A stretch of DNA of 60,361 nt from the NCBI GenBank assembly GCA_910575615.1, contig CAJTEX010000018.1:1-60361 (forward strand). The letters are read 5' to 3'. Positions within the stretch are counted from its first letter, which is position 1, and each line of letters opens with the position of its first letter. This stretch comes from Bacteroidales bacterium (GTDB taxonomy: Bacteria; Bacteroidota; Bacteroidia; Bacteroidales; Muribaculaceae). Positions 38,096 to 56,032 of this stretch are shown one piece after another. The notes under the pieces were generated by a model. It saw nothing but the letters and a program-made list of their open reading frames with translations. It did not search any database and was not told where the DNA came from. The translations under genes and the position numbers were made by a program.

Positions 38096-38129
38096 TTCCG
38101 ATTAAAAAAGTTGCTCGATATCAGCTTCA

Positions 38130-40894: not shown

Positions 40895-41093
40895 TTAAAA
40901 AAGCGACGAACTCGGCGTTAAGCCTTGTGCCGTCGAACTCAGAGATGTCCCACTGATAACTGAATATCTCGCCGGTTGACCTGTCCAGCCACTTGCGCTT
41001 CCGAACATGCAGGTATGTGGAACGCCCCCTTATGGGATAATCCTGTATGGTGCGGTAATCCCCAAAACCGTAAGATATGATGTTCTGATGTAC
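40881..41093 (-). pseudogene. ISAon1 orfA, 3' half
   Basis: Seventy codons beginning VHQNIISYGFGDYRTIQDYP and ending FVAFLKEGD. It is the C-terminal half of the ISAon1 N-terminal-region protein, including the IRGRSTYLHVRKRKWLDR core. It joins in frame to the piece at 46187-46339 if element A is removed, giving a 121-residue protein. Confidence 0.8.
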
Positions 41094-41135
41094 AGTATTT
41101 AATTATTTGATATTCAAGGCATAATATAATTTTAG

Positions 41136-41155
41136 GTGTACTAAAAATGTACTAA
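41136..41155. repeat. GTAC-type arm repeats, element A left end
   Basis: GTGTACTAAAAATGTACTAA: two TGTACTAA copies 12 bp apart, in the same orientation as the pair near the right end (46048-46067). Confidence 0.65.
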
Positions 41156-41343
41156 GTGAGAAAATTGGCACAAGTAAATAGCATGGATTTAAGTTTAATT
41201 TGCAGGTGTTAGTTATTTTTAGTTCTATTCTTTTGCCTCGGTTTTCTTCTTTCGGTGGTCGGTATAAAGGATGATATAGGGGTTGGTGAAAAGAAAAACT
41301 GATATGTGCATTTCTCTTTTGCCCAGCATATATTTATAGGCTT

Positions 41344-41378
41344 GGTTCGGTTTATATATCTATATATAGAACCAAACC
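41344..41378. repeat. GGTTTGGTT inverted-repeat motif, copy 3
   Basis: GGTTCGGTT faces AACCAAACC around TATATATCTATATATAG. TTTTGCCCAGC flanks it on both sides (41328 and 41388). Confidence 0.65.
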
Positions 41379-41400
41379 AAACTTATTTTTGCCCAGCCTA

Positions 41401-41431
41401 TTGACTTGCAACGCAAAAAGTCGTAACTTTG
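41401..41431 (+). promoter_or_regulatory. Cargo promoter of element A
   Basis: TTG (41401-41403) and TAACTTTG (41424-41431) with 20-nt spacing. The sequence around it is almost identical in element B. Confidence 0.8.
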
Positions 41432-41437
41432 CAGTTG

Positions 41438-41650
41438 ATTGGGAGTAGTCCCGTCACGACATTTTGAAAAAAAGAGGCGTTATGTCTTCTTCTTGTATGC
41501 GATAAGCGTAGGAAACTTTATTCACATGAGCAAGAGACGGCGTAATGGTCTCCACGCATATGCGTGGGGCTGTTATTTCCACATCTGCTCATCAAGGTAT
41601 TCCTACCACCTTCGCATTAAGACGTGGCATTACAGTTCCACGCTTCTTGG
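41438..41650 (+). ncRNA. Structured leader RNA of element A
   Basis: Predicted pairings: GTAGGAA (41508-41514) with TTCCTAC (41600-41606); TGAGCA (41527-41532) with TGCTCA (41586-41591); GAGAC (41534-41538) with GTCTC (41548-41552); hairpin CCACGCATATGCGTGG (41552-41567); and CGTGG (41623-41627) with CCACG (41638-41642). The first stem is replaced in element B by an unrelated sequence that still pairs. A short ORF could be drawn across it, but it is not conserved between copies. Confidence 0.7.
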
Positions 41651-41695
41651 TTTTTAATTGCACTTATGGTAACTGAGGTGCGCTTACATCAGAAT

Positions 41696-42376
41696 ATGAA
41701 AAAGATAATAGCAGGCGTTATCGTCGTTTTGGTTGCGATATGTGCATACGCCCAACAAGACGTAACGCAGTTCCTCGGAATTCCTGTTGACGGCTCTAAA
41801 TCGGCAATGATTCAAAAGTTAAAGGCCAAAGGATTTCATGCCAATTCTTATAACAAGGATGTTTTGGAGGGGAAATTTAATGGGATGGACGTAAATATCC
41901 ACATTGCAACAAATGGCGATAAAGTGTGCCGAATAATGGTATGCGATGCCAATAATGTGGACGAGCGTTCAATCCAAATCCGGTTCAACAGACTAATACA
42001 GCAGTTTGAAAAGAACCCTAAATATATGTCTTTAGGTAATGAACTTATACCTGATGATGAAGACATATCCTACAATATCAGCGTAAAGAACAAACGATAT
42101 GAGGCTATCTTCTATCAGCAACCGGCAGAATTGTCAGACACTACGTTATTGCGAGAAAAACTAATGCCCATAATCTTGAAGAAATATACGGCAGAAGAAC
42201 TTGCGAATCCAACTGAGGAAATGCAAAAGGAGCTAATGAAAATATCGTTTGATTATATGATGGATTTGTGTTCCAAAAAGCCAGTATGGTTTATGATTTC
42301 TGAACTCTATGGCAAATATTATATCACCATGTTCTATGATAACGAATACAATCGTGCAAATGGAGAGGATTTATAA
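41696..42376 (+). CDS. Cargo gene A1, exported protein
   Basis: A 226-residue protein with a signal peptide (1-20, MKKIIAGVIVVLVAICAYAQ). The mature N terminus (VTQFLGIPVDGSKSAMIQKL, then KGF) is typical of small Bacteroides periplasmic proteins whose function is unknown. The C-terminal part has ELYGKYYITMFYDNEYNRAN. It is the first gene after the leader RNA and overlaps the next by 17 nt. Confidence 0.75.
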   Translation: MKKIIAGVIVVLVAICAYAQQDVTQFLGIPVDGSKSAMIQKLKAKGFHANSYNKDVLEGKFNGMDVNIHIATNGDKVCRIMVCDANNVDERSIQIRFNRLIQQFEKNPKYMSLGNELIPDDEDISYNISVKNKRYEAIFYQQPAELSDTTLLREKLMPIILKKYTAEELANPTEEMQKELMKISFDYMMDLCSKKPVWFMISELYGKYYITMFYDNEYNRANGEDL

Positions 42377-42869
42377 GCACGCTTACATAAGCATAATATC
42401 TTTATTGGCAATCTGTATGTTGAGCGGGTGTGCGTCTATGCGTCCTCCTGTCATCCATACTTACGATGACTCCATTGATAATTATCGATATTTCTATATA
42501 TCTCCAACTGGTGATTACACGTCAAGTGCCGGAGTTTATGGCAATCAATATGGCGTTTATGGAGGAACAACCAAATCCATTAACCCAGCCTCTTTAATAT
42601 CGGGTATCCTTTTTAAGAATGGATTTATCCAAGTCAATGAGGTGAACCCTAACAACGCAAAGGAAACAATGATTGTGAACTTTGGAGAAACTGGGCGCAG
42701 AAATGTCAACCTCGGATATTCTATTGAGGTTACAATTCAGTTTATATCAGCATATACACAGCGTCCAATTTGTACCTGTACGGCAGAGGGTCAAGGTGAA
42801 ACGGAAGCTGATGATGTTCGTAAAGCAATTCAAAGCGCACTAAAGCCTTTGTTCAATTCTAAAAAATAG
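42360..42869 (+). CDS. Cargo gene A2, lipoprotein
   Basis: A 169-residue protein with lipobox MLSGCASM (Cys at about 24). The mature part has a Gly/Tyr-rich turn region (GVYGNQYGVYGGTT) and a C-terminal EADDVRKAIQSALKPLF helix. It resembles small lipoproteins with a DUF4136-like end, but I do not assign a family. The start at 42360 lies within A1, suggesting translational coupling. Confidence 0.7.
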   Translation: MERIYKHAYISIISLLAICMLSGCASMRPPVIHTYDDSIDNYRYFYISPTGDYTSSAGVYGNQYGVYGGTTKSINPASLISGILFKNGFIQVNEVNPNNAKETMIVNFGETGRRNVNLGYSIEVTIQFISAYTQRPICTCTAEGQGETEADDVRKAIQSALKPLFNSKK

Positions 42870-42872
42870 CAT

Positions 42873-43571
42873 ATGTATCCAAGCGATAATATATTCAGCA
42901 TATACTATAACATTGGCAAGAGAACCCCATTCTTGGTAAAAAGGTGTGAGTTGGGGTTGGCTCGTTCTTCAAGCGAAGAAAGACGTCATGACCCTAATCG
43001 AGATAGAACTTTTTTAGTTGAAACTGTAAAGCCACGGGGTAAGTATGGTAAGGCTTATGGTAAATGCTTTGTGGATGGTAAGCCGGATGATAGTTATAGA
43101 CAAGGGTGCTATCCAAATATCAAAGATGAGGAAATCCCCTGCGCAGGATGTGGAGAATGGGTTCTTCTTGATGTCCCCGGAGTTGACATGAACGAAATAT
43201 TCCCCATTCGAAATCCCGACTATGTTATTGAGTTTGGAAAATACAAAGGCAAGACGATAAAAGAGATATATTCCCAAGACCCAAAATATATCTTTTGGCT
43301 AATGGAGAAAGACCATTATTTTAGGGTTGATTTCGACCAACTGCTAAACATCCCTGAAAACACATCGGATAGAGAGCGTATTATTGAGGACGAAATAACT
43401 CGAGTTTTTCCAAAGGCAACTCCCGATGACGTGATTTCTTTTGGAAAGTATAAAGGAAAAACTTTTCAAGAAATTTTTGCAATCGATCCAAATTACATTG
43501 ATTGGTTCTTGCGAAATAATCAGACATTGGACATAGATGTCAAAGCTTTTGTTTCAATGATGAGAAAGTAA
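42873..43571 (+). CDS. Cargo gene A3, protein with two ExoX-C-like repeats
   Basis: A 232-residue cytoplasmic protein. The first 110 residues include two CxxC-like sites (GCYP, CAGCGEW) that may bind zinc. Two copies of a short repeat follow: FGKYKGKTIKEIYSQDPKYI (about 120-145) and FGKYKGKTFQEIFAIDPNYI (about 190-215). This FGKYKGK motif occurs at the C terminus of exodeoxyribonuclease X-type and phage proteins and is thought to bind DNA. No nuclease active site is visible. Confidence 0.7.
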   Translation: MYPSDNIFSIYYNIGKRTPFLVKRCELGLARSSSEERRHDPNRDRTFLVETVKPRGKYGKAYGKCFVDGKPDDSYRQGCYPNIKDEEIPCAGCGEWVLLDVPGVDMNEIFPIRNPDYVIEFGKYKGKTIKEIYSQDPKYIFWLMEKDHYFRVDFDQLLNIPENTSDRERIIEDEITRVFPKATPDDVISFGKYKGKTFQEIFAIDPNYIDWFLRNNQTLDIDVKAFVSMMRK

Positions 43572-43582
43572 AGGAGAGGTTT

Positions 43583-43600
43583 CCAAAGGTTGACCTTTGG
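43583..43600. terminator. Hairpin at the end of cargo A
   Basis: CCAAAGG-TTGA-CCTTTGG, 12 bp after the A3 stop, without a T-run. The same hairpin ends cargo B, and sequence identity between the two elements begins here. Confidence 0.65.
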
Positions 43601-43740
43601 CATATTTGGGATATTTTCAGCGTTGACTTGTCAATGCGGCTCGGAAAATTCCCTAATATGCTAAGGAATTTCCTGTCGGTGTAATTTCCATGACGGTGTT
43701 GTAGTTGTATTTTGCATTGGCTTTGATATTGATTTAGGGA

Positions 43741-43920
43741 GTGACTGAATGATTAAATGACTGAATGATTAGATGATTAATCACTCAGTCATTTTGTCAT
43801 TTAAATGATTAATCATTCAGTCATCAATTCATCTAATCATTCAGTCATCAATTCATCTAATCATTTAATCATCCGGATGATTGGTCACTTTGTTATTCAG
43901 TCATTTCATCATTGATGTTA
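43741..43920. repeat. ATTCAGTCAT tandem repeats of element A
   Basis: About 180 bp of short AT-rich repeats in both orientations: GACTGAATGATTA, ATGATTAATCATTCAGTCAT and TCATCTAATCATTCAGTCAT. Element B has the same repeats over only about 75 bp (52597-52673), so copy number differs. They might be iterons or a nucleoid-protein site; unknown. Confidence 0.75.
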
Positions 43921-44012
43921 GAGGGCGTTATCGGGAGATGATAGGTGGAGCGTTTTGGGATTACTGGTAATACCTAAACATAAACTCGCTCCACCCTAAA
44001 ACGACCTCTTAT

Positions 44013-44124
44013 GGCAATGAGAAAAACAAAGAGCGGTCACGGCCGTGACTGCGGTTTCGGCGGTGGCTTTTCGGAGAAAAAGGAATCCCGAAACATATCC
44101 TTGCACTCCTTTTTTCTCGTTGCC
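44013..44124. other. oriT-like region of element A
   Basis: Outer inverted repeats GGCAATGAGAAAAA (44013-44026) and TTTTTCTCGTTGCC (44111-44124). Inside are AAAGAGCGG, palindrome GTCACGGCCGTGAC, then a 37-bp core (44068-44104) matching the element 1 core at 36 of 37 positions, including TTTTCGG, CCCGAAA and CATATCCTTGC. No relaxase gene in this element. Confidence 0.7.
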
Positions 44125-44364
44125 TTTCGTCATTGTAATGACCGCAGTCACTATAATGGCATCAACCGACCGTCGGGAGCATACACAGCCTTTTGAGAAA
44201 CTCAAAAGGTATCTTGCCCAACTACGAAAATCCCGTCTTTTTTCTCGTTGCCGTATCTTATTGTTTTCTCGTTGTCACCCCTTGCATTCTTTGCACTTTT
44301 GCACAATCAAGGGTCAACTTCATCAAAGAATAAGGGAGTATGGTATCTGCGTTATTCCAATATT

Positions 44365-44704
44365 ACCCCGTGGCATTTTTGACACTTTGGCATTTTCAAA
44401 GTGTGTCAGAGTGCAAGGTGTGCAATGGGGTAATCCTGAAAAATGTTGACGGATTTCGCCACACTATCTGCATTTCCTGCATTTTCAAGTCCCAAAATGC
44501 AGAAAATGCAGAAAGTGCAAAGCCTTTACGCTGATTTTTCTTTTCATCGCCCCTAAGCCTTATGGTTTGGTTTAGTCTTATATATACACCCCCGTACTGA
44601 ACCAAACCAAAATCAATAGATGGTGACCACCGAAAAAAGAAAGAACCTTCCGATGTCGGTCGGAGAGTTCCCAAAATGCCAAAGTGCCAAAAATGCCACG
44701 GTGT
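44365..44704. repeat. Inverted repeats and long hairpins, element A
   Basis: CCGTGGCATTTTTGACACTT (44366) and its inverted, slightly diverged copy (44671-44704) bracket 340 bp. Inside is a long TCTGCATTTCCTGCATTTTC hairpin (about 44468-44517) and the GGTTTGGTT motif. Element B has the same layout. No gene seen between 43572 and 44709. Confidence 0.6.
44564..44608. repeat. GGTTTGGTT inverted-repeat motif, copy 4
   Basis: GGTTTGGTT (44564-44572) faces AACCAAACC (44600-44608) around TATATATACACCCCC. Confidence 0.65.
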
Positions 44705-44709
44705 AAAAA

Positions 44710-45960
44710 CTACGGCATAGCATAGCCGATAGAGCCGAGGCTGTTGACGGCATCCATTTTCTGCCTGTCGAAGACATGGAGATATTTCTCGGTGGTGGAT
44801 ATTCCGCAATGCCCCATAAGTTCCGATACCGTCTTTATGTTGACACCGTTGTCAAGCATATTGACTGCGAATGAATGGCGACCGCAGTGCCATGAAATCC
44901 ACTTCGTTATCCCCGCTTCCTTAATCCACCGTTTGAGGTGCTTGTTGCAGGTTGAATAGTTGGGCAGTTTGAATATCGGCTCATTGGGGTCGTATGGCTC
45001 TGACGGTTTGCCTATCAAAGAGAGCAAATCATCGTTAAGGGGGAACGACACGGCACTGTGTGCGCTCCTTGATTCGACTTTCTTCTGGTTGAAACGCAGT
45101 GTGCGTGTGGTGGCGTCAACATTTCCGTATGTCAGCAGTTTCACATCACACCAGCGTATGCTTGTGAAGAGAGTGAAAATAAATGCCCTCTGCACCTCCT
45201 TGTGTTCACCCTCATAGTGGGTGTTGACAAGCGTTCTTACCTCGTCAAGAGTAAGAACCTCCTTTTTCACTTGGTTGCGGTCATGCTTTACGGATATACC
45301 CTTGCATGGATTGACCCTCATCAAACCGTCCTCGATAGCGTCAAGGACAATCCGCTTGAAATAATGGTACATCTTGTTTGGTCCCTCACCCTTGCCGTTG
45401 GCTCGGAGAAAGTCTGCGAACTTCATCACAAGTTCGGGTGTCACGGTCTCCATGTGCAGGAACTTGTCATACTTGCTGTATCTCGGAGTTTCTTTGAGGA
45501 AACGGATGAAGCGGTTATAGGTCTGAACGACCGATTTGCGAACATAGTAGGTGAACCCCTCGGATTCACATTTCTCTTTGAAATATGCGAGAAAGTTGGT
45601 CTGCCTGTCTTTCTTCAACCTATATCCGGCTCTATCCTCCAAAAACGCCTGCTCACGCTCAAAGCGTATCTTCTCGGCGAGTGCGAGGGTGTTCTTGTTC
45701 TGTGTCCTCTCTTGTAGATTTCTCGGATGTATCCAGATGTATAGATTGAGGTTTTCTTTTCGGCGGTCGTGCTTGACCTTGTATTTGGGTTTTCCCGCCA
45801 TTGCCCCGGTGGTGTAATAGACTTGGTTTCCCTCATCGTCAAGCACGGGAGTTTCGGTGCGTCCGAGGTAATATTCCAGATAAAGGCTCGCCCGACCGTC
45901 TTTCAGCTCGGACTGTTGCAGTTTCGGATTTTGTTTGTTTCGTGTTTGGATTTTCGCCAT
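44710..45960 (-). CDS. int: Tyrosine recombinase of element A
   Basis: A 416-residue integrase. The N-terminal arm-binding segment begins MAKIQTRNKQNPKLQQSELK, a SAM-like core-binding domain spans about 115-215, and the catalytic domain has Arg in FTSIRWCDVKLLT, HxxR in SWHCGRHSFAVN, His in LMGHCGIST and Tyr in TEKYLHVFDRQ. All five catalytic positions are present, unlike the integrase of element 1. The start at 45960 matches its homologue in element B, with which it shares most residues. Confidence 0.92.
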   Translation of the reverse strand: MAKIQTRNKQNPKLQQSELKDGRASLYLEYYLGRTETPVLDDEGNQVYYTTGAMAGKPKYKVKHDRRKENLNLYIWIHPRNLQERTQNKNTLALAEKIRFEREQAFLEDRAGYRLKKDRQTNFLAYFKEKCESEGFTYYVRKSVVQTYNRFIRFLKETPRYSKYDKFLHMETVTPELVMKFADFLRANGKGEGPNKMYHYFKRIVLDAIEDGLMRVNPCKGISVKHDRNQVKKEVLTLDEVRTLVNTHYEGEHKEVQRAFIFTLFTSIRWCDVKLLTYGNVDATTRTLRFNQKKVESRSAHSAVSFPLNDDLLSLIGKPSEPYDPNEPIFKLPNYSTCNKHLKRWIKEAGITKWISWHCGRHSFAVNMLDNGVNIKTVSELMGHCGISTTEKYLHVFDRQKMDAVNSLGSIGYAMP

Positions 45961-46047
45961 TAATAGAGTAATTTTGTGGTTGTAAAGCAAAGGTAGCCAC
46001 ACGTTGCGAAACGTGAAAATCGCCCTCAACTTCTATTAACAATCGAA

Positions 46048-46068
46048 ATGTACTAATTGTGTACTAAA
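46048..46068. repeat. GTAC-type arm repeats, element A right end
   Basis: ATGTACTAATTGTGTACTAA, next to the integrase. The reverse complement is nearly identical to the left-end pair of element B. Confidence 0.65.
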
Positions 46069-46186
46069 TGCGAAAATAAGTAGAAAAAGCCACAAATCAA
46101 TCAAATTTCGCAATTTGCTAAATGACTGATAATCATTGTAACTATCTATATTCAGTTATATCCTTTTTCCCCACGTTGAGTTATCC

Positions 46187-46339
46187 GGTGTCTTTATTGT
46201 ACTTGTCTTCGCGAAGTTGCTCTTTCTTCTCATCAAGCCATATGTCGAAGCGGGTCTCACTTTTTTCATATCGTTCAATATCGAAGTTGTCTATCAGGAC
46301 TTCGGGTAGGATGGCTCTGAGCAGTTGATCTGGTTTCAT
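46187..46339 (-). pseudogene. ISAon1 orfA, 5' half
   Basis: Fifty-one codons from ATG 46339, MKPDQLLRAILPEVLIDNFD to EDKYNKDT. The frame continues only two codons past the junction. Joined to 40881-41093 it makes the intact orfA. Confidence 0.8.
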
Positions 46340-46844
46340 TGTGCAAAGATAACACTATACTCTTGATACTCTCTCCCGCCCACCGGAAAAATCCGCTGAC
46401 CCCTGCGGGTTATGTCTGCGGCGGATAAGGTCACAACCGTCACGGCAGAGCAATCTGACGCTCCGCTATGGCCGCGAAATTTGCCACCGCAACTTTCCTA
46501 ACAAAGCTTTGTTCAAAATAGTTCACGATTCAGCGAAAAATATCATCCATAGCCAAAAGTAGTTCATGAGCGGTCATTACACCCCGCTGGCTCCGGACTT
46601 TCTTTTCAGCGGCAAAGATAAAGTGTAATTTTCAATCTCGCCAAATTTTTTCCGCCGGATATAGCACAAGGTTGTACATGTATCTCGGTATATACAACCG
46701 GTATAGCGATGGTCGCCTCACAATCGCCGGCAAAGATAACACCGTCTCACCAGACTTTCCAAATTATTTCGGGCATGGTTCCCGTTATTGCGTTTTAGGT
46801 ACCTTCTTTTCCCTTCTGAGGACCATTTACCCTCTAAAATATGC

Positions 46845-46926
46845 TTATAATCCGCCAAATCTATGGCTTTTGACCCACTTTTGGCGGATTATAATGAGAT
46901 TTTGTCAATTATTTTTATTAACTTTG
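46845..46926 (+). promoter_or_regulatory. Operator-like inverted repeat and promoter of AAA ATPase
   Basis: TTATAATCCGCCAAA (46845-46859) and TTTGGCGGATTATAA (46880-46894) are a perfect 15-bp inverted repeat with a 20-bp spacer. TAACTTTG at 46919-46926 is the -7 box, so the right arm overlaps or abuts the -33 region. The 546-bp gap from 46405 to 46950 shows nothing else I recognise. Confidence 0.7.
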
Positions 46927-46950
46927 CACTTGAAAATAAGAAGTATTGCC

Positions 46951-48375
46951 ATGATAATCGGAAGAAAACCAGAGCAAAAAGAACTATTGGATGCCGCAAA
47001 CTCTGAATACTCTAAGTTTGTGGCAGTATATGGACGTCGGCGTGTAGGAAAGACATTTCTTATTCGCGAGACTTTCAATTACTCCTTTACATTCCAACAT
47101 ACCGGATTAGCTCGTGGAAAAATGAAGGATCAACTCTTAAGCTTTAGGGAATCTCTTAAAAAGGCTTCAGGAAAGAAGTATAATCAATTCAAGAATTGGT
47201 ACGAGGCTTTTTTTGCATTGGAAGAGTGGCTCGGCTCATTACCTGAAGGTAAAAAGATTGTTTTCTTCGACGAACTACCATGGATGGACACACCCCGGTC
47301 CAATTTCATATCCGGATTAGAACATTTTTGGAATAGCTGGGCTTCGGCAAGGAAAGACATACTTCTCATTGCTTGTGGGTCAGCGACCTCTTGGATTGTC
47401 AACAAACTCATAAATAATCATGGCGGTCTTCATAATCGACTGACCAACAAAATCCTGCTTCATCCATTTTTGCTCTCTGAATGTGAACAATATTCAGAAG
47501 CGAATAATTTGGGGTTGAGCCGTTATCAGATAGTTGAAAATTATATGATAATGGGAGGTGTTCCTTTTTATTGGAGTTTGATGAAAAAAGAGCTTAGTAT
47601 GGCTCAGAATATTGATGCGTTGTTCTTCTCAGATGAAGTTGAAGGTCTGTCACATGAATACGAACAATTGTATGCCTCTTTGTTTAACAATCCGGAACCA
47701 TATATGGGTATTGTATCGGCATTGGCAAAGAAAACAAAGGGATTGAGTCGTGATGAGATTTCAAAGTTGGCGAATGTGCGCACTGGAGGTGAATTGTCGA
47801 AACTGCTTAATGAACTTGAATGGTGTGGCTTTATAAGGAAATATAATAGTATCGGAAAGCAATCAAAAGATGCGCTATATCAGCTAATTGATAACTTTAC
47901 ATTCTTCTATTTCCAATATATAAAGGGTAATAAGAACAACGATTCGCATTTCTGGACTAATAATATCGGCAGTCCCTTACATCGCGCTTGGAGTGGACTT
48001 GCTTTTGAACGTGTTTGCCTTCAGCATATATCACAAATTAAAGAAGCCCTCGGAATATCTGGAGTCTTGTCTAATGTTTATAGCTGGAGGACAGAGGCTG
48101 ATGAGGATAAAGGAATTGACAAAACTCAGATAGACCTGTTGATTGACCGCAATGACGGAGTAATCAATTTATGCGAGATGAAATTCTCCGCACAAGAGTA
48201 TGCGATAACGGAAGACGAAGAGATGAAACTCCGCCGCCGTCGCGGTAACTTCATTGATGCAACTCAAACCAAAAAGGCTGTTCACATTACGCTTGTTACT
48301 CCTTATGGCCTGAAGAAGAACTCACACTCGGCAATCGCTCAGAATGAGGTTGACGCTGGGGCTTTCTTTAACTAA
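46951..48375 (+). CDS. AAA ATPase of the DUF234/archaeal-ATPase type
   Basis: A 474-residue protein with Walker A YGRRRVGKTFLIRE (about 26-39), Walker B KKIVFFDELPWMD (about 102-114) and an Arg-finger region. After the ATPase core come a winged helix (KGLSRDEISKLANVRTGGEL) and a C-terminal PD-(D/E)xK-like nuclease fold: the acidic Asp is in KTQIDLLIDRNDG and E-x-K in NLCEMKFSAQEY (about 410). Such proteins are frequent in Bacteroidetes and archaea, often near mobile elements; role unknown. The start at 46951 follows a -7 box by 24 nt. Confidence 0.88.
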   Translation: MIIGRKPEQKELLDAANSEYSKFVAVYGRRRVGKTFLIRETFNYSFTFQHTGLARGKMKDQLLSFRESLKKASGKKYNQFKNWYEAFFALEEWLGSLPEGKKIVFFDELPWMDTPRSNFISGLEHFWNSWASARKDILLIACGSATSWIVNKLINNHGGLHNRLTNKILLHPFLLSECEQYSEANNLGLSRYQIVENYMIMGGVPFYWSLMKKELSMAQNIDALFFSDEVEGLSHEYEQLYASLFNNPEPYMGIVSALAKKTKGLSRDEISKLANVRTGGELSKLLNELEWCGFIRKYNSIGKQSKDALYQLIDNFTFFYFQYIKGNKNNDSHFWTNNIGSPLHRAWSGLAFERVCLQHISQIKEALGISGVLSNVYSWRTEADEDKGIDKTQIDLLIDRNDGVINLCEMKFSAQEYAITEDEEMKLRRRRGNFIDATQTKKAVHITLVTPYGLKKNSHSAIAQNEVDAGAFFN

Positions 48376-48389
48376 AATATTGAGAGTGT

Positions 48390-49220
48390 TCATCTTGTCA
48401 AGGAATCACAAAAAGAATTTGACAGTCCTACCGATTGAAGTATACTTCTTATATGTGTTAACTCAATGTCAGATGTAGTCAAATCGCAGTTTTGGGTAAC
48501 TAATTCATGATGTAATAATTTGAGTTTATAGGATGGAATAGCCACCATACTATAATCTTTATCGAACAACATGACATTATCAGATGAATTTGTCATTTGG
48601 TTTAACAGCTCTTCTAGTTTTGAATCGTGCATGGCATCAACGGTCTTTACAAGTAATGGATCAATATCGGGATCTGGAAAATTCTGCATCTGATAATTAA
48701 CCCTTTCTCGTTGCTTAAGCATCCAAGTATAAGGAGAATCATCGTCTATCGTATTAGACGATGTCACATCTGATATAGTCCCATTTGCGACTAAATCGGA
48801 ATATAGTTTTATGGTAAGTTGATGATCTCCGCGTGCTTTTCCTGAATTGTATTTGCTGAATTGAGTATCGGTTTTAATATTCAGTTTGAATAGTGCGCTA
48901 TTTCTTACCAATAAATATGAATTAAGCAATAACTCGCAACGCAGACAATAAAAAATTGAGTAATACAACTTTACAATACTCCACGCCGAGAATCCTTTAT
49001 ACATACCATGTAACCCCTGAGAATACGAACATAATGCTTTAAGCCAGTATGAGATGGCATCTAATGTTCGATAACCATTCACTAATGTAATGTCCTCGCT
49101 GGTAAGATTTAGTTGTATTAAATTTTGCTGATACGATCCCCATTTTGTTAAATCCGAACAACCACATTTGTCTTCAATAAATTCTTGAATATTATTACGC
49201 TTAAAGCTCATATTCCTCAA
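48390..49220 (-). CDS. HEPN-like partner of DGQHR protein
   Basis: A 276-residue helical cytoplasmic protein. The segment SAWSIVKLYYSIFYCLRCEL (about 85-105) resembles the second helix of HEPN-type or nucleotidyltransferase-partner proteins, and MLKQRERVNYQ (about 165) would be the conserved Arg/Asn motif. No RxxxxH catalytic motif is evident, so nuclease activity is not supported. It overlaps the 3' end of the DGQHR gene by 20 nt. ATG 49211 is an alternative start. Confidence 0.55.
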   Translation of the reverse strand: MRNMSFKRNNIQEFIEDKCGCSDLTKWGSYQQNLIQLNLTSEDITLVNGYRTLDAISYWLKALCSYSQGLHGMYKGFSAWSIVKLYYSIFYCLRCELLLNSYLLVRNSALFKLNIKTDTQFSKYNSGKARGDHQLTIKLYSDLVANGTISDVTSSNTIDDDSPYTWMLKQRERVNYQMQNFPDPDIDPLLVKTVDAMHDSKLEELLNQMTNSSDNVMLFDKDYSMVAIPSYKLKLLHHELVTQNCDLTTSDIELTHIRSILQSVGLSNSFCDSLTR

Positions 49221-50244
49221 GATTTTGTGGTAGGTCTTGGCTTAACAGGTCATAGAAGAATGAAGCGACTTTCTTTCTGCCGCTTTTCCCATCCGAGGAT
49301 TTAATATCAGTCTGAGTAATCAAATATGAATCTTCTAATTTCATTAAGTCAGACATATGCTGCTTGGTAAAATTTCGATCCGTTTGGCATCTAGAAATCA
49401 AGTGATCTACTAAGAAATCAAAAGCACCGCTAAACCCAGCCGCTTTCATAAATGGATTCTCACTTTTCTTATCCCATATCTTAGCAACAGTATAAGCATC
49501 TCTAATGGCAGAATAGAAATTGAGGATAATGCGTTGCTGCAACTCAATATCCATTAACTTATATTTCGCGAATGCTCCATCTTTTTCAAAATGAGGCTTC
49601 ATTGCATTCACCATGATTGATAAGTCTATCAGCCCTGGCTGCTTTGTAGGACTTGGATAACGAACCATCTGAAAATATGGCGACTCGCGATTGGTATTCA
49701 ACTCATCTATTATATCTTTTATTCGGTTTATAACATGTGCAGAGTCTTCAACAGCCTCCCCGAACAGGTCATATATAAGACTTTTTGGAACCGGCTTCTG
49801 TTCACTGTTAATATTAAGAAATATTTTGGCTGCATCAGAGGTCTTCAGATCAATAAACATGCTCACCAATACATCTAAATCTCCATATTTAGAATCCATA
49901 TTTACTGCTTCTTGTATGCCAGCTATACGATGTTGACCATCAAGCATTTGAACACGTCGTCCCTGTAAAGGCAATATGATGCTATCCTTCTTTATTTTGG
50001 GTTGGTTATTAACGTCAGTCCAATTGAGAATAAAGCTATTGACAAAAGAATTACCTTGTAGCACAAAGTCCTTAATGTCGTTAATTCTTCGTTTATTAAG
50101 GACTCGTTGAACTGCACCTTGCTCTGTACTGCCACCACGAACGGCTACGTATTGAATAGGGAGCAAATCTTTTGCTTTCATCACAAATGTGTAACATGAG
50201 TGGCCCATAAAGTTGGATTCAATGTATCGGTATTCTACATTCAT
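49201..50244 (-). CDS. DGQHR-domain protein (DndB-like)
   Basis: A 347-residue protein. The domain name motif LDGQHRIAGI (about 100) is intact, preceded by the RRINDIKDFVL and SFVNSFILNW region and followed by KIFLNINSEQKPVPKSLIYD, as in the ParB-like fold of DndB/DpdB proteins. These accompany DNA modification systems (phosphorothioation or 7-deazaguanine), but no modification genes are seen here. The start at 50244 begins MNVEYRYIESNF; a -7 box TAACTTTG is 24 nt upstream on the minus strand. Confidence 0.82.
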   Translation of the reverse strand: MNVEYRYIESNFMGHSCYTFVMKAKDLLPIQYVAVRGGSTEQGAVQRVLNKRRINDIKDFVLQGNSFVNSFILNWTDVNNQPKIKKDSIILPLQGRRVQMLDGQHRIAGIQEAVNMDSKYGDLDVLVSMFIDLKTSDAAKIFLNINSEQKPVPKSLIYDLFGEAVEDSAHVINRIKDIIDELNTNRESPYFQMVRYPSPTKQPGLIDLSIMVNAMKPHFEKDGAFAKYKLMDIELQQRIILNFYSAIRDAYTVAKIWDKKSENPFMKAAGFSGAFDFLVDHLISRCQTDRNFTKQHMSDLMKLEDSYLITQTDIKSSDGKSGRKKVASFFYDLLSQDLPQNLEEYEL

Positions 50245-50422
50245 AACTGTATAGTTTATTTCATGTACAAAGTTACAACTTTTATTTGGCACAAAAAAAT
50301 TAGAGGTTAGTATTTTGCTACAAATTTACTGACATTCAAATATATTTATTTCTATTCATTTTCAAGCAATTACAGCTTTGAGTATTTCTATGTTTTTTCC
50401 TTAGTTTGCCTTATTTTTCGCA

Positions 50423-50441
50423 TTTAGTACACAATTAGTAC
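50423..50441. repeat. GTAC-type arm repeats, element B left end
   Basis: TTTAGTACACAATTAGTAC, matching the pair beside the integrase of element A base for base in inverted orientation. Confidence 0.65.
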
Positions 50442-50525
50442 GATTGGATTGTTAATATCTGTTGTGAGCCGTTTTCAAGTCTGATTACGCCTCATTACCT
50501 TTGCATCAAACAAAGATAATCACCT

Positions 50526-51785
50526 ATGGCTAAAGTAGAAAGCAAAAATAAACAGAACCCCAAGCTCGTACAGTCCGAATTGCAGGACGGTCGGGCAAGT
50601 CTTGCGTTGGAGTATTATCTCGGACGCAACGAAACCCCGGTGCTTGATGAAAACGGCAACCATGTCCTCTATACCGAGGGGGCGATGAAAGGAAAACCGA
50701 AATATAGAATCAAGCATATCCGCAAACGAGAGGTGCTGAACCTCTATATATGGCTACACCCTCGCAACCAGCAGGAACGCACCCAAAACAAGAATACTCT
50801 CGCACTCGCCGAGAAGATACGGTTTGAGCGTGAGCAGGAATTTCTCGAAGACCGTGAGGGATACCGACTGAAAAAGGACGGTGAGAACGACTTTATCAAA
50901 TACTTCCGCAAACATTGGGAGAACGAGTTGTATTCAAAGCCAGTGAGAACTACCTACAAGACCTCTCACAACCGCTTTATGAGATTCCTTGAGGCTACAC
51001 CACGCTTCCAACGTTACACATCGTTTCTGCGCATGGAATTGATTACACCCGAAATGGTGACGAGTTTCACAGACTATCTGAAGAAAGTCGCCAAAGGAGA
51101 GGGAGCGCATAAGTCATACTATATGTTCCGAACCGTAATTCTCCATGCGATAGAAGAAGGACTGATGAAAAAGAATCCGTGCAAAGGAATCGTAATCCAC
51201 CGTGACGTGAACACGCTGAAAAAAGAGATACTGACAATGGATGAAATCAAACGCCTTGCCGCCACTCATTACGAGGGTGAGGATACGGCACTGCAACGAG
51301 CATTTCTCTTTTGCTGTTTCACCGGCATACGCTGGTGTGACACCGTGAGCCTCACACACGCCAATGTCGATTTCTCGGCAAAGATACTCCGATTCAACCA
51401 ACAAAAGACCGAGGGGCGTAGCGCACACAGCGGTGTCACAATCCCATTAAGTCCAACGTTGCTGAAACTCATCGGGAATCCTATACAACACACTTCCGAA
51501 AAAATATTCAATATCACCTGCTACCGCACAACCGCAATCACACGCTTGCAGAAATGGGTAAAGGCAGCAGGAATCAACAAGACTATCACATGGCATTGCG
51601 CCCGCCACAGTTTCGCTGTAAATGTGCTTGGTGCAGGAGCGAACATCAAGACCGTTGCCTCTCTAATGGGACATTCAAGTATCAAGATGACCGAGAAATA
51701 TCTCCACGTCATTGACCAGCAGAAGCAGGACGCAATCAACAGCCTCGGCGACCTTGACTATGACTGCGAGGCGGTCAGCGTGTAG
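50526..51785 (+). CDS. int: Tyrosine recombinase of element B
   Basis: A 419-residue integrase, homologue of the one in element A. Arm domain MAKVESKNKQNPKLVQSELQ; catalytic Arg in FTGIRWCDTVSL, HxxR in TWHCARHSFAVN, His in LMGHSSIKM, Tyr in TEKYLHVIDQQ. The two proteins differ at many positions over the whole length, so A and B are not recent duplicates but separate arrivals of one family. Confidence 0.92.
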   Translation: MAKVESKNKQNPKLVQSELQDGRASLALEYYLGRNETPVLDENGNHVLYTEGAMKGKPKYRIKHIRKREVLNLYIWLHPRNQQERTQNKNTLALAEKIRFEREQEFLEDREGYRLKKDGENDFIKYFRKHWENELYSKPVRTTYKTSHNRFMRFLEATPRFQRYTSFLRMELITPEMVTSFTDYLKKVAKGEGAHKSYYMFRTVILHAIEEGLMKKNPCKGIVIHRDVNTLKKEILTMDEIKRLAATHYEGEDTALQRAFLFCCFTGIRWCDTVSLTHANVDFSAKILRFNQQKTEGRSAHSGVTIPLSPTLLKLIGNPIQHTSEKIFNITCYRTTAITRLQKWVKAAGINKTITWHCARHSFAVNVLGAGANIKTVASLMGHSSIKMTEKYLHVIDQQKQDAINSLGDLDYDCEAVSV

Positions 51786-51789
51786 ATTT

Positions 51790-52136
51790 TACACCGTGGC
51801 ATTTTTGACACTTTGGCACTTTTGGAACTCTCCGACCGACATCGGAGGGTTCTTCTTTTTTCCGGCGGTCATCATCTATGAATTTTGGTTTGGTTCAGTA
51901 CGGGGGGTATATATAGGGCAAATCCGAACCAAGACAATATATGAGGGCAGAGAAAAGAAAAAACGATGAAAAACGCTCGCATTTTCTGCATTATCCGCAT
52001 TTTGGAACTTGAAAATGCAGGAAATGCAGATAGTGTGGCGGTGTCAGTCAACATTTTTCAGGAATTATCCCATTGCACACCTTGCATTCTTGCACACTTT
52101 GAAAATGCCAAAGTGTCAAAAATGCCACGGGGTAAT
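51790..52136. repeat. Inverted repeats and hairpins, element B
   Basis: CCGTGGCATTTTTGACACTT near 51793 and its inverted copy (52099-52136) bracket the TGCATTT hairpin (about 51980-52030) and the GGTTTGGTT motif. The region 51786-52895 has no gene I can support. Confidence 0.6.
51887..51932. repeat. GGTTTGGTT inverted-repeat motif, copy 5
   Basis: GGTTTGGTT (51887-51895) faces a shortened arm AACCAA (51927-51932) around GGTATATATAGGG. Confidence 0.55.
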
Positions 52137-52383
52137 ATTGAAATAACACAGATACCACACACCCTTATTCCTTGATGAAGCTGACCCTTGATTGTGCAAA
52201 AGTGCAAAGAATGCAAGGGGGACAATGAGAAAAATCGGATTTTCGTAATCGGCAAGATACCGTCTGACTACCTCAAAAGGCTCTCTTCCGACGGTCGGAT
52301 ATAATCACTAAATTGCTACAGTCATTGCAGTGGATGTGTTGACTTAAACGAATACTGTCATTACACTGACTATCGTCATTATG

Positions 52384-52495
52384 ACGATGAGAAAAAAAGG
52401 AGTGCAAGGATATGTTTCGGGATTCCTTTTTCTCCGAAAAGCCACCGCCGAAACCGCAGTCACTGCCGTGACCGCTCTTTGTTTTTCTCATTGCC
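52384..52495. other. oriT-like region of element B
   Basis: On the minus strand it has the same order as element A: outer arm GGCAATGAGAAAAA, AAAGAGCGG, GTCACGGCAGTGAC, and the 37-bp core (52404-52440) identical to that of element A. The far outer arm (GACGATGAGAAAAA) is diverged. Confidence 0.7.
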
Positions 52496-52596
52496 ATAGG
52501 AGGTCGTTTTAGGGTGGAGCGAGTTTATGCTTAGGTATTACCTGTAATCCCAAAACGCTCCACAACCTCATCACCCAGTAATGCCCTCTAACATCA

Positions 52597-52673
52597 ATGA
52601 TGAAATGACTGAATGATTAATCATTTAAATGACAAAATGACTGAGTGACTAATCATCTAATCATTCAGTCATT
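52597..52673. repeat. ATTCAGTCAT tandem repeats of element B
   Basis: The same short repeats as at 43741-43920, but fewer: GACTGAATGATTA in both orientations around a central TAAATGACAAAATGACTGAG. Confidence 0.7.
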
Positions 52674-52805
52674 CCGTAAATCAATATCAAAGCCAATGCG
52701 AAATACAACCACAACACCGTCATGGAAATTACACCGACAGGAAATTCCTTAGCTCATTAGGGAATTTTCCAAGCCGCATTGACAAGTCAACGCTGAAAAT
52801 ATCCC

Positions 52806-52830
52806 GAATGAGCCAAAGGTCAACCTTTGG
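52806..52830. terminator. Hairpin at the end of cargo B
   Basis: CCAAAGGTCAACCTTTGG, the inverted version of the hairpin at 43583-43600. Backbone identity with element A begins here. Confidence 0.65.
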
Positions 52831-52895
52831 AATCCGAGGATTATTGAATACCTTTTGGAAAACAAATTGTACTCAACTAAGATTAACCCTTCTGA

Positions 52896-53336
52896 TTAAT
52901 AAATCCTTCGCATCCATCTTTCCTTATCTTTCATTCCCCATTGGACATGCCACGCTCTGCCATTAGTCTTATCCAGCAGAAGGAATTGATACATATTCTG
53001 TGTTGGATAAAGTTCAAACAAACTGCCACTGCTCCATGAGAGGTCTTCATTGTTAATAGAAACAGACCCTTCCTTATCGGTGTCCAAAGACCATTGAACT
53101 TGCTCTATTCTCCCAGTTCGTGTATCCAATTTAAGAAAGTTATATATGTTCTCTGTTGGATAGAATTTATATCGGTCATTTGCTTCACTCTTGAGAATTC
53201 TCATATCTATATCCTCAAGTATTGTTGCTATATATGAAGATATAGAGTCATTCTTGTTACTTGTCGAAGTCTCACCCTGTGCCGAAGAGCTTAATGCACA
53301 GAGCAGCGCAAATGTTAAGAGTATAAATTTCCTCAT
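52896..53336 (-). CDS. Cargo gene B3, exported repeat protein
   Basis: A 146-residue protein with a signal peptide (1-19, ending SSSAQ). The mature part contains two copies of a 30-residue repeat: RYKFYPTENIYNFLKLDTRT with VQWSL, and LFELYPTQNMYQFLLLDKTN with VQWGM. This YPTxNxYxFLxLD...VQW repeat is seen in other gut Bacteroidales proteins of unknown role. It is the last gene of the cargo operon. Confidence 0.75.
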   Translation of the reverse strand: MRKFILLTFALLCALSSSAQGETSTSNKNDSISSYIATILEDIDMRILKSEANDRYKFYPTENIYNFLKLDTRTGRIEQVQWSLDTDKEGSVSINNEDLSWSSGSLFELYPTQNMYQFLLLDKTNGRAWHVQWGMKDKERWMRRIY

Positions 53337-53350
53337 AATAAAGATTGTTG

Positions 53351-54190
53351 TTATATGTCATCTTCAATTTTGGCATTTCTGTGATAACCATGACGGATAA
53401 ATGGATCTACAAAAATAAGTTCTTTGTACCATACTCCCTCGGGATTCTTCTTATTCTGCATGCGAAAGAAACCTCTAACAGGAATGTCATTGTCATTGAT
53501 TATCTTCTTGAACCATTTTGAATCCATAACAATGACTTCCTGACCACATTGATTGATAACCTTCTTCTTTTCTACATATTCAAGTGGCGTTCCAGCAACC
53601 GCAGTAAATGTGCCTTGAGGAATAATTAGAGGCTCGACTTTTATATATTTCTTAACGGCTAAATATACGGCAATAAAGCGAAGTCGAATTCCAATTTCAT
53701 CAATGCGATGTTGAATAGTACCAGCCAACAAGTTATCATCATATAAAATTGAGTCAGTCATTAATAATTTGGGCTGTCCATCAACAAATTCATATCCGGC
53801 AGAGAAATGGAACATACTATGTCCGTTTTGTTCATTAAAGAACCAAATATTCAATTGATTGTCGCCAAAACCATAAACTAAGGTTTCATTGTTACGAAGT
53901 ATAAGAATACCACACTCATCCGTTTCGCTAAACTCTTTGAATAAATCCGGCATGATTTTTTCAAAAGCTGGTGCGCTTTTCTCCATAACTCTTTCGAAGG
54001 AAGGCATTACAAGTTCAGGCAATCCCCATTTGGGTTTCATCGCTCGTATTTCCTTTAAATGTTTCAACTCTTCATTGAGAATTTCATAGTTCTCTCTATT
54101 TTGAGGAGCGGCGAACGTCAAACCCTCCTGAAATCCAGGTGTGTCAGGATTAAGCAACCAAGTGATAATAGGGCGTTTTTTGATTATCAT
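53351..54190 (-). CDS. Cargo gene B2, unknown cytoplasmic protein
   Basis: A 279-residue protein without signal peptide or membrane segment. Mixed alpha/beta appearance, with PKWGLPELVMPSFERVMEKS and YHRNAKIEDDI at the end. No motif I recognise. Spacing to its neighbours is 14 nt on each side, so it belongs to one operon with B1 and B3. Confidence 0.65.
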   Translation of the reverse strand: MIIKKRPIITWLLNPDTPGFQEGLTFAAPQNRENYEILNEELKHLKEIRAMKPKWGLPELVMPSFERVMEKSAPAFEKIMPDLFKEFSETDECGILILRNNETLVYGFGDNQLNIWFFNEQNGHSMFHFSAGYEFVDGQPKLLMTDSILYDDNLLAGTIQHRIDEIGIRLRFIAVYLAVKKYIKVEPLIIPQGTFTAVAGTPLEYVEKKKVINQCGQEVIVMDSKWFKKIINDNDIPVRGFFRMQNKKNPEGVWYKELIFVDPFIRHGYHRNAKIEDDI

Positions 54191-54204
54191 AACGTGCTAT
54201 GGGA

Positions 54205-54888
54205 TTAGTAAATTTCTTCTTGGACCTTCTCAATCATATCAGAAATATCGTTCGACGATGATATTGCGATCATAACTTTTGAGATTGCCTCATAATCTTC
54301 TTTTGGATATGCAGACTTCTCATTAAAATCCTCATCACAAAAGAATACATATTCTCCGAATAAATCAAGAGTTCCTGCCCCATTGAGGCTTTTGAATTTG
54401 TGATATACTTTCCACCCGTTAAAATCACCAATCTTCAACAAAGCCTCTGCTTCCAAATAGGATTGTCTGCTTTTTATTTTGGAGAATTGGTTTTGGATTC
54501 GGTATTTTGTCTTATCCAAAAGTCGTTGATTGTTATCTCGTTCTTCTTTTGCCCTGCGGTATTCCCCCTTACTATATGCTGATGAATATCCACTCGGAGA
54601 CCAAATCTCCATAGAACTTTCAGCACTTTCGATTTTATCTGCATACTCCTGTGCTGATTGAAAAAGCTTCAACATATCCAATGTGAGTTCAATTGCCTCC
54701 CTATCCGTTGATAGCGCAACAAAAGAACTATCAACTTTTGTTTGCAGTGGTTCATAACTATCAAAATGATATAAAACACCTTTAAGATAATTAGCTGCCA
54801 TTTCTTGTGCCTTTTCTTCTTTGGATTGTCCACAAGAACATAATCCTATAAGGGCAACAAGAGTAATAATCAAGGATTTCGTTTTCAT
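54205..54888 (-). CDS. Cargo gene B1, lipoprotein
   Basis: A 227-residue protein with lipobox LIGLCSCGQS (Cys at about 17). The mature part is mainly helical, with a Lys/Glu/Arg-rich coiled region (KGEYRRAKEERDNNQRLLDK) and a C-terminal half that may be globular. Family unknown. It is the first gene after the leader RNA of element B. It does not resemble A1 or A2. Confidence 0.7.
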   Translation of the reverse strand: MKTKSLIITLVALIGLCSCGQSKEEKAQEMAANYLKGVLYHFDSYEPLQTKVDSSFVALSTDREAIELTLDMLKLFQSAQEYADKIESAESSMEIWSPSGYSSAYSKGEYRRAKEERDNNQRLLDKTKYRIQNQFSKIKSRQSYLEAEALLKIGDFNGWKVYHKFKSLNGAGTLDLFGEYVFFCDEDFNEKSAYPKEDYEAISKVMIAISSSNDISDMIEKVQEEIY

Positions 54889-54954
54889 ATCGCAGGGGTT
54901 CGATTGGTTGATGTTGTTCTACTTGCAACTCCTTAAGCAGACTAATTAAAACAC

Positions 54955-55156
54955 AAAGCGTGGAACTGCAATGCCACGTCTTAGAATGGAGGCCCTGAGA
55001 AAGCCTGTGAGCAGATGTAACAATAGCAGCCCACGCCATAGCGTGAGAACCACTATGCTACTCTTGCTCTGTCGAAGTTTCTCAGGTTTCCACTCTCAAG
55101 AGATAAGCATAACGCTTCTTATTTTTCAAAATGTCGTGATGGGATTACTCCCAATC
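54955..55156 (-). ncRNA. Structured leader RNA of element B
   Basis: Minus strand. CCTGAGAAA (55086-55078) pairs with TTTCTCAGG (55002-54994), 9 bp, replacing the unrelated GTAGGAA/TTCCTAC stem of element A. GAGCA/TGCTC, hairpin CACGC-TATG-GCGTG, and AAG-a-CGTGG with CCACG-CTT are kept. The flanks, such as CACGACATTTTG and CGTGGCATTGCAGTTCCACG, are nearly identical to element A. Confidence 0.7.
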
Positions 55157-55161
55157 AATTG

Positions 55162-55192
55162 CAAAGTTACGACTTTTTGTGTTGCGAGTCAA
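55162..55192 (-). promoter_or_regulatory. Cargo promoter of element B
   Basis: The minus strand has TTG (55192-55190) and TAACTTTG (55169-55162), 20 nt apart; identical in both boxes and spacing to element A. Confidence 0.8.
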
Positions 55193-55214
55193 TAGGCTGG
55201 GCAAAAATAAGTTT

Positions 55215-55254
55215 GGTTTGGTTCTATATATAGATATATAAACCGAACCAAACC
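55215..55254. repeat. GGTTTGGTT inverted-repeat motif, copy 6
   Basis: GGTTTGGTTC faces GAACCAAACC around TATATATAGATATATAAACC. It is next to TTTTGCCCAGC (minus strand), as in element A. Confidence 0.65.
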
Positions 55255-55425
55255 TATAAATATATGCGATGCAAAAGAGAAATGCCCACCTAAATTTTTC
55301 TTTTCACCAGCCCATATCCCTACACCAACCTTACCACCGAAAGAAGAAAATCAAGGCAAATAAATAAAGTTAACGACAGCAAATTATCTATAATTCGTTT
55401 CTATGCGTTTTCGGACAGCTCTCTA

Positions 55426-55444
55426 TTTAGTACGAATTTAGTAC
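55426..55444. repeat. GTAC-type arm repeats, element B right end
   Basis: TTTAGTACGAATTTAGTAC: a perfect TTTAGTAC direct repeat 11 bp apart, in the same orientation as the left-end pair. Confidence 0.65.
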
Positions 55445-55578
55445 ATCTTCATACAATTATATCATTGATAATCAGCATTAATATACCTTAAACTAAAATT
55501 GAGGTTAGATTTTTGTGATACAAAAATCGTCGCAACCATGTTGCTCCCCTCGCCACCCTCCATTACACCGGGTGGAGC

Positions 55579-55594
55579 GGTACACCGGTGTACC
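55579..55594. repeat. Palindrome upstream of second mobC (oriT candidate)
   Basis: GGTACACCGGTGTACC is a perfect 16-bp palindrome preceded by ACACCGGGTGG and followed by GAATCCGC. It lies 48 bp before mobC, where an oriT is expected. It shares no core with the oriT-like sites of elements 1, A and B. No gene seen in 55487-55642. Confidence 0.45.
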
Positions 55595-55642
55595 GAATCC
55601 GCTTTGCCCCTCCATTTTAAAACCCTCAATCCCCCCACGCCA

Positions 55643-56026: not shown

Positions 56027-56032
56027 TTTCCT

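Follow-up and report, generated by a model that had tools for sequence, protein, structure and literature searches.

Two relaxase-less integrative elements in a Muribaculaceae genome with four oriT-like modules, a cargo slot and a structured leader RNA

The 60,361-nucleotide stretch of DNA analysed here (the window: contig CAJTEX010000018.1 of assembly GCA_910575615.1, from a Bacteroidales bacterium of the Muribaculaceae) contains two compact elements, A and B, inverted relative to each other (Table 1). Each has one integrase gene and three cargo genes, the integrase and cargo genes being convergent, and between them lies a non-coding block containing sequences that elsewhere stand in front of relaxase genes. 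A preliminary description of this DNA had proposed two inverted elements on one backbone, and the homology is confirmed. The leader side is 92% identical (A 41276-41471 against B 55122-55317), the backbone from cargo to integrase consists of identity blocks of 82-99%, and a 1138-bp backbone query matches B at E 7.5e-277. Both integrases are tyrosine recombinases with 60% identity, and they are intact in A, in B and in the copies of both elements. The ATTCAGTCAT array is likewise present in A and B, and pairs of GTACTAA lie close to both ends of each.

Where do the elements end? Limits of 41094-46186 for A and about 50305-55486 for B had been suggested; the elements are real, and their bounds are refined to those of Table 1. 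A copy of A at another site in another genus of the Muribaculaceae (genome G084), 98.9% identical over 5104 bp, sets the ends of A. A sits inside the transposase gene of an insertion sequence (IS), of which its own genome has two uninterrupted copies (C9:118062-118293 and C21:47476-47707), and the joined flanks of A match these copies at 96%. The insertion site of the G084 copy is also found uninterrupted in other genomes (75-80%). B has a copy at another site in Isolate-036 (the same locus as in genome G569), 97.6% identical over 5266 bp. Integration with defined ends is thereby documented for A by the copies of its target gene, and for B by the ends only. Because each element has a copy at another site elsewhere, and because the integrases are only 60% identical, A and B were most likely acquired separately, as had been argued before.

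The non-coding block begins, in A, with what had been named a cargo-end hairpin. The feature is shared by A and B, and the label needs correction. This sequence of about 120 bp, module V, lies directly upstream of the genes for Mob_Pre relaxases (the MOBV family) in longer relatives of the elements, and is best read as a relaxase-linked region resembling a MOBV origin of transfer (oriT). V of A matches upstream of 12 Mob_Pre loci, at E values from 1e-25 to 3e-5, and the V sequence is found about 100 bp upstream of the annotated mobV on the Bacteroides uniformis plasmid pBUN1.

Farther along, at 43930-44218, is a segment previously taken for one oriT-like region. It is oriT-like, with three such regions in place of one: the segments Pa, Pb and Pc each match sequence upstream of mobC-relaxase operons, with a different MOBP family (a, b or c) for each segment. 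The relaxases of these three families share 28-37% identity with each other, and MOBV is a separate Pfam family. Pc of A and the MOBP locus L117 are identical at 30 of 30 positions. Inverted repeats are present in Pa and Pc, and the motifs GCAAGGATA and GCAAGATACC in Pb and Pc resemble what we take to be the IncP nic consensus. All the matches of V, Pa, Pb and Pc of A are in one orientation; the single opposite-strand match, a weak one, is that of B's V at L160 (E 0.001).

How specific is this association? We assembled 93 distinct relaxase loci (62 MOBP and 31 MOBV) from Pfam searches of relatives and from earlier matches. With positions 43572-44713 of A as query, BLASTN at E<1e-3 gave 39 matches in the upstream stretches of these loci (44,996 bases), distributed over 24 of the 93 (V at 12, Pa at 5, Pb at 5 and Pc at 2). 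In relaxase coding sequence (105,213 bases) this query had no match, and 40 dinucleotide shuffles likewise yielded none. In another search with the middle block of A, twelve matches carried the label mobC; 11 of them are at MOBV loci with a spurious open reading frame (ORF) over the oriT, and at the remaining one, L117, the match is to a mobC frame with a longer start.

A and B themselves encode no relaxase, and so lack the Mob_Pre gene that a canonical MOBV integrative mobilizable element (IME) has. In a profile search of their own genome there were 11 matches to PF03432 and two to Mob_Pre, none within A or B; on this contig PF03432 is matched just at 30963-31337 and 56249-56575, and PF01076 only on contigs C46 and C37. 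MobV or MobP matches were also absent from L222 and L225, copies of A and B. Candidates for cognate relaxases do reside in the genome of A and B, namely a MOBV relaxase on C46, one of MOBP-a on C15 and one of MOBP-b within the window. TraG was the sole mating-apparatus gene searched for, and its own-genome matches are on C9 (a conjugative TraG, 1599 bits) and C35 only, not in A or B. A chain that leads from conjugative element to mobilizable helper to relaxase-less hitchhiker is plausible. We note that window positions 29725-39479 hold a MOBP mobilizable element, with relaxase, mobC, primase-like genes and an integrase-like ORF, which is a candidate helper for Pb.

The longer relatives are MOBV elements in the order integrase, helix-turn-helix gene, DUF3987 gene, hairpin, V, MOBV relaxase, cargo, and most of them have the leader as well. 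One autonomous element, L223 of Duncaniella muris, has an integrase 94% identical to that of A, and the terminus plus integrase of A match it at 83.6% DNA identity. The bracketing inverted repeats of the preliminary description are present in A and B; what can now be added is that they match helper elements beside their V module. The ATTCAGTCAT array was compared with autonomous elements as a possible iteron origin, and the 9-mer has 2 to 5 copies in four-oriT elements against 0 to 2 in the autonomous relatives examined. Retrieval by integrase in named genomes gave 35 loci. Nine have DUF3987, V and MobV together; in one more, DUF3987 and V are followed by the contig end. Two, which are the copies of A and B, are four-oriT elements without DUF3987 and MobV. 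The other 23 are without V; some of these have long flanks, and others are truncated by the end of a contig.

A near-full backbone was found in 4 of the 198 relatives searched. The scan of 397 family genomes (block match at E<=1e-6, best two candidates per genome scored) gave a block match in at least 28, and at least seven copies with three or more origins, at least six of these with four. V, Pa, Pb and Pc occur together in A, B, L067, L068 and L069. L084 has a split V with Pa and Pb, and L070 has V with Pb; V is the only one of these modules at L071, L077, L079, L081, L082, L086 and L100. L079 and L081 end soon after the oriT core. A common right end at the oriT core for the integrase-less loci was considered and dropped, as the stop point varies by locus. 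At L070, L071, L077, L079 and L081 the leader-side terminus resembles that of B (CTAACCTCAATTTTAGTTTA), and there is cargo along with V, without an A/B-type integrase beside V; possibly these are integrase-less mini-elements, or remnants. L071 and L077 are both near clpB, though in different genera. As for the surroundings of B, it is inserted directly upstream of the mobC (NikA-like)-relaxase operon of another MOBP element (window 55501-57418), near the presumed oriT, and at L072 the leader end of a MOBV element also lies directly upstream of a mobC-relaxase operon.

Table 1. Features of elements A and B and of the neighbouring MOBP-b element (window positions)
Feature	Position	Strand	Basis or remark
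Element A, whole	41084-46188 (+/-5 bp)		Copy in G084 and uninterrupted target IS gene copies
Promoter of A cargo	41401-41431	+	TTGAC 41401-41405, TAACTTTG 41424-41431, read from sequence
Leader RNA of A	41434-41698	+	Ends at start codon of cargo gene 1; 266.7 bits
Cargo A1	41696-42376	+	Signal peptide, 'FLGIPVDG' family, no Pfam
Cargo A2	42363-42869	+	Lipoprotein-like by eye; homolog in L275
Cargo A3	42873-43571	+	ExoX-like_C repeats, PF20600
Module V of A	43574-43698	+	Former 'cargo-end hairpin'; upstream of Mob_Pre loci
ATTCAGTCAT array of A	43732-43930	not assigned	
Module Pa of A	43930-44011	+	Upstream of 5 mobC-relaxase operons, MOBP family a
Module Pb of A	44051-44109	+	Upstream of 5 operons, MOBP family b, and the window's own operon
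Module Pc of A	44158-44218	+	Upstream of 2 operons, MOBP family c
Inverted-repeat hairpin 1 of A	44354-44433	+	Resembles helper stretch between DUF3987 gene and V
Inverted-repeat hairpin 2 of A	44668-44707	+	
Integrase of A, tyrosine recombinase	44710-45957	-	Pfam PF00589, PF13102, PF17293
Element B, whole	50303-55508		8-bp repeat GAGGTTAG at both ends; ends and Isolate-036 copy
Integrase of B, tyrosine recombinase	50526-51785	+	Pfam
Module Pc of B	52251-52310	-	Sequence match
Module Pb of B	52399-52457	-	Sequence match
Module Pa of B	52497-52580	-	Sequence match
ATTCAGTCAT array of B	52579-52684	not assigned	Shorter than A's
Module V of B	52715-52840	-	Sequence match
Cargo B3	52896-53336	-	Signal peptide by eye; homologs in L068, L300, L301
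Cargo B2	53351-54190	-	No family found
Cargo B1	54205-54888	-	Lipoprotein-like by eye; homolog in L283
Leader RNA of B	54886-55159	-	209.9 bits for 54903-55159
Relaxase, MOBP family b, helper candidate of neighbouring element	30471-31424	-	PF03432
mobC of neighbouring MOBP-b element	31432-31803		NikA-like
oriT-like segment of neighbouring helper, matches Pb	31847-31904	+	85% over 59 bp, 97% over 37 bp

The idea of a family with a defined cargo slot holds up, since four cargo sets (A, B, L068 and L069) occur on the four-oriT backbone, and the order and strand of the modules recur. The slot, from leader to V, has three genes in A, B and L068, and one in L069, L084 and L070. The cargo of A and that of B are unrelated, as had been stated (best blastp E 0.06), but in L068 there are distant relatives of both, C1 being related to B3 (44%) and C2 to A1 (30%). 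The sharp stop of identity claimed for both sides of the slot is seen on the hairpin side, with a change from 0.50 to 0.90 between adjoining 20-nt windows at about 43583; the leader side is stepped, falling from 0.87-1.0 (promoter and start of the transcript) to 0.50-0.77 (body of the RNA) and then to 0.37 at 41667. The cargo genes are short (146-279 amino acids) and co-oriented, with a GC content of 0.36-0.40 against 0.483 for the window, and four of the six A/B proteins look exported by eye. Family searches indicated no function for them except for the ExoX-like repeats of A3. No PADLOC model matches any of the six, and one L068 cargo gene has weak matches to kinase models. PHROGs gave weak matches, to superinfection exclusion for A2 (E 0.008) and to a family of unknown function for B1 (E 8e-6). 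Homologs of A1 follow leaders at seven loci (43-54% identity), and those of A2 (L275), B1 (L283) and B3 (L300 and L301) likewise stand behind leaders. For A1, solved structures searched by sequence with the A1 family gave no match, and the AlphaFold model for this family is fair (pLDDT 79.7).

The cargo of A is preceded by a promoter, called by what we take to be the -33/-7 consensus of Bacteroides, and by a leader RNA with a predicted fold of -88.9 kcal/mol (z -5.5). Of 37 extracted leaders, 28 were aligned; L067, L073 and L083 were left out as near duplicates, L093 as partial, and L069, L079, L081, L084 and L086 as different or not alignable. The 28 rows agree on 39 pairs in six helices, with 96.3% of 1077 cells paired as against 39-50% in slid alignments. 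The covariation score is 0.451, against 0.226+/-0.010 for shuffled and 0.083-0.120 for slid alignments, and 18 pairs are changed on both sides, a number reached by 1 of 500 shuffles (shuffled mean 13.8). A covariance model, applied to order-level genomes with at most the five best candidates per genome scored, finds the leader in at least 114 of 393 genomes and at least 67 of 206 genera, and also at loci without a visible A/B-type element. For 20 further loci (three in the own genome and 17 in other families, 64-97 bits), 33 of the 39 pairs change on both sides, in an alignment that was fitted to the model and in which one helix is paired in just 71% of cells; one alignment, of 21 rows, includes one weak antisense match (25.9 bits). 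Of the 20 leaders, 9 have a TAnnTTTG box upstream (6 among the 17 distant loci), compared with 96 of 5436 control windows. At 17 of 20 (14 of 17 distant) there is an ORF start close to the end of the model, which itself ends in ATG. A simple ad hoc rule classes 57 of the 69 ORFs behind leaders as exported, and 151 of 702 in the background; the background ORFs are computed and surely include some that are not genes, which lowers their share. The 69 come from 83 rows, 73 of them distinct.

Is this RNA already described? With Rfam 15 at the gathering score the window gives just one tRNA and no leader family. At E<=1, positions 41000-46400 give 11 matches, all far below gathering and none in the leader, and at E<=0.1 the 20 other leader loci give tRNA only. 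Literature searches at the level of titles and abstracts brought up no paper that could be tied to the leader. It may represent a new RNA class, which would regulate expression of the cargo and perhaps link translation to export or to envelope state. The leader that had been described as shared is a structured one in A and B; L069, which has a different leader, is unmatched by the model, as are L079, L081 and L084, and L077 and L086 match weakly (25-28 bits). A second leader occupies the same slot in L069, L079 and L084, before an exported protein of about 291-297 amino acids. In L069 this second leader is strongly folded (z -6.55), and the protein has weak similarity to undecaprenyl-diphosphate phosphatases.

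Other occurrences of the leader may be noted here. The own genome has three more (C28:8435-8704, C44:185-450 and C26:16090-16349), which precede one exported protein of 698 amino acids and two proteins of a 'FKGIPIEG' family. In two human-gut Bacteroidales records (L336 and L337) the leader precedes related genes. In Parabacteroides distasonis (L338, NZ_OY725823.1, 3967-6151) it lies between a relaxase-like gene, with 22% identity to MobV by tblastn and no Pfam match, and a pair made up of a DarT gene and a NADAR-DarT1-like gene. The leader is also present on one IMG/VR viral contig (L335) and in one unannotated phage record (MT836071.1).

What, then, are A and B? We think it quite likely, going by their sequences, that they are IMEs of the relaxase-less type (iOriT) that have four origins of transfer and rely on several helpers for mobilization in trans. 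A MOBV IME would have supplied their ends, integrase and oriT; its DUF3987 and relaxase genes are absent, and three MOBP-like oriTs stand in their place, in the same orientation. The integrase would excise a circle, perhaps aided by an excision factor of the helper, and whichever relaxase is available (MOBV, MOBP-a, -b or -c) would nick its cognate site. The circle would then use the type IV secretion system that a resident conjugative element provides, and in the recipient the integrase would insert it. The cargo, in the slot between the leader and the MOBV oriT, would be a short operon that differs by element, encodes partly exported proteins and is expressed from a fixed promoter through a structured, conserved 5' leader RNA. 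Loci with three, two or one origins may be steps in the making of a four-oriT element, or its remains. A wider proposal is that A and B are satellites of satellites, holding the origins of four unrelated relaxases, and that the leader is a large new Bacteroidales class of multi-helix RNAs of about 230 nt, tied to genes for exported proteins and serving mobile cargo as its expression head; this joint claim we advance tentatively, as possible rather than probable.

A number of points weigh against mobilization in trans. Nicking, transfer and excision are events that we infer. Copies with four origins are rare, with six in 5 of the 397 family genomes at two candidates scored per genome; three or more origins occur in G000, the genome of A and B, and in G084, G099, G101 and G569. 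By tblastn there is no A/B-type integrase beside V at L070, L071, L077, L079, L081, L082, L084 and L086, and the loci with three, two or one origins may thus be remnants, not steps. The L069 contig ends inside the integrase, and the ATG-started integrase frame of L068 has just 364 amino acids. Of the helper candidates in the own genome, the MOBV locus on C46 has a V site that is split in two by an insertion and is among the more divergent, and a cognate of Pc was not found in that genome. Of the 24 relaxase loci with a match, eighteen had been brought in through earlier query matches nearby, and only six (L153, L161, L186, L188, L189 and L190) come from Pfam searches alone; the count of matched loci is biased, their upstream position is not. 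Finally, the P modules lie about 28-120 bp upstream of mobC, where a promoter or operator of mobC is expected.

One might think therefore that the P modules are operators or promoters for MobC-like regulators and were never acquired as transfer origins, the nic sites being conjectural. No gene of A or B, however, is positioned to be driven from the P modules, and these contain the nic-like motifs and inverted repeats mentioned above. V, moreover, is found at MOBV loci, and at several of these the place of mobC is without an ORF. An operator function seems to us improbable, and we would say much the same of a graveyard, that is, a MOBV element that has lost its relaxase, has collected scraps of oriT by nested insertion and deletion, and is no longer mobile. 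The loci with fewer origins and no A/B-type integrase beside them, and the early stop of L079 and L081, are what such decay would leave. Yet the integrases of A and B are whole, and a 97-99% copy of each is present at a different site in another genome. Decay also sits poorly with a Pa+Pb block that is 98% identical between A and B, against 60% for the integrases, and with the same module order and strand recurring with four cargo sets.

Two further explanations are less probable still. The tyrosine recombinase and the short, co-oriented genes of low GC recall a type VI secretion system immunity island of the rAID type (PMC12247911), in which the integrase would be a cassette-capturing recombinase. 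The cargo is below the 41% GC of such islands. Membership was rejected on layout, the recombinase not being upstream of two or more co-directional genes; in A and B the integrase and cargo converge. Defined ends, oriT-like modules and four exported-looking proteins of six also set A and B apart, and with the lack of PADLOC matches to the cargo make this a very unlikely account. A phage satellite is the least credible of all. Such a satellite might have the compact integrase-plus-cargo layout, and the weak PHROGs matches of A2 and B1 point the same way, but the backbone is unmatched in 50,697 phage records, the Pa-Pb junction is unmatched in IMG/VR, and among the proteins scanned none matched a family for packaging or capsids.

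Without a marker gene, relaxase-less hitchhikers easily escape notice. If A and B are mobilized in trans as proposed, they would be general hitchhikers with a helper range written in non-coding DNA. From its sequence, the block of some 650 bp (43574-44218) points to probable helpers, several of which reside in this genome; the helper range should then be predictable, and can be tested, origin by origin. The leader RNA raises a question of its own. Why should unrelated genes across the Bacteroidales, largely for exported proteins, share one elaborate RNA?

How do A and B compare with known systems? The preliminary view that no described family has this layout was too strong, as iOriT is a named class of relaxase-less IMEs (PMC11389934), reported in Firmicutes and Proteobacteria in a 2017 review (PMC5704250). 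Like these, A and B have an integrase, no relaxase and, by the TraG search, no mating apparatus, and they would have an oriT and depend on helpers; unlike them, A and B hold four oriT-like modules for four relaxase families, and their host belongs to the Bacteroidales. Multi-oriT replicons are also known, as plasmids (PMC4652767, PMC7755788). Staphylococcus aureus plasmids with two or three oriT variants use relaxases in trans, as we propose for A and B, with several oriT subfamilies per replicon; there the variants belong to related pWBG749-like clusters, whereas A and B are integrated and their modules dissimilar. In the two-oriT plasmids the oriTs are invariably on opposite strands, and in A and B the modules are on one strand (PMC4652767). 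Searches of titles and abstracts brought up no integrative element that combines oriTs of several relaxase families, and for one that has four, each belonging to a different family, we have found no printed precedent. Streptococcal IME_oriT elements bring to mind the position of B, which adjoins another element's mobC-relaxase operon on the upstream side, close to the presumed oriT, but they encode a relaxase of their own (PMC7563843). A and B also resemble Bacteroidales MOBV IMEs with DUF3987 and Mob_Pre, such as L223, L074 and L085. L223 and L074 share with A and B the ends, the integrase family, V, the leader and the cargo slot; the mobV region of pBUN1 shares the V module. These IMEs carry a MOBV relaxase and replication-type genes, both of which are missing from A and B.

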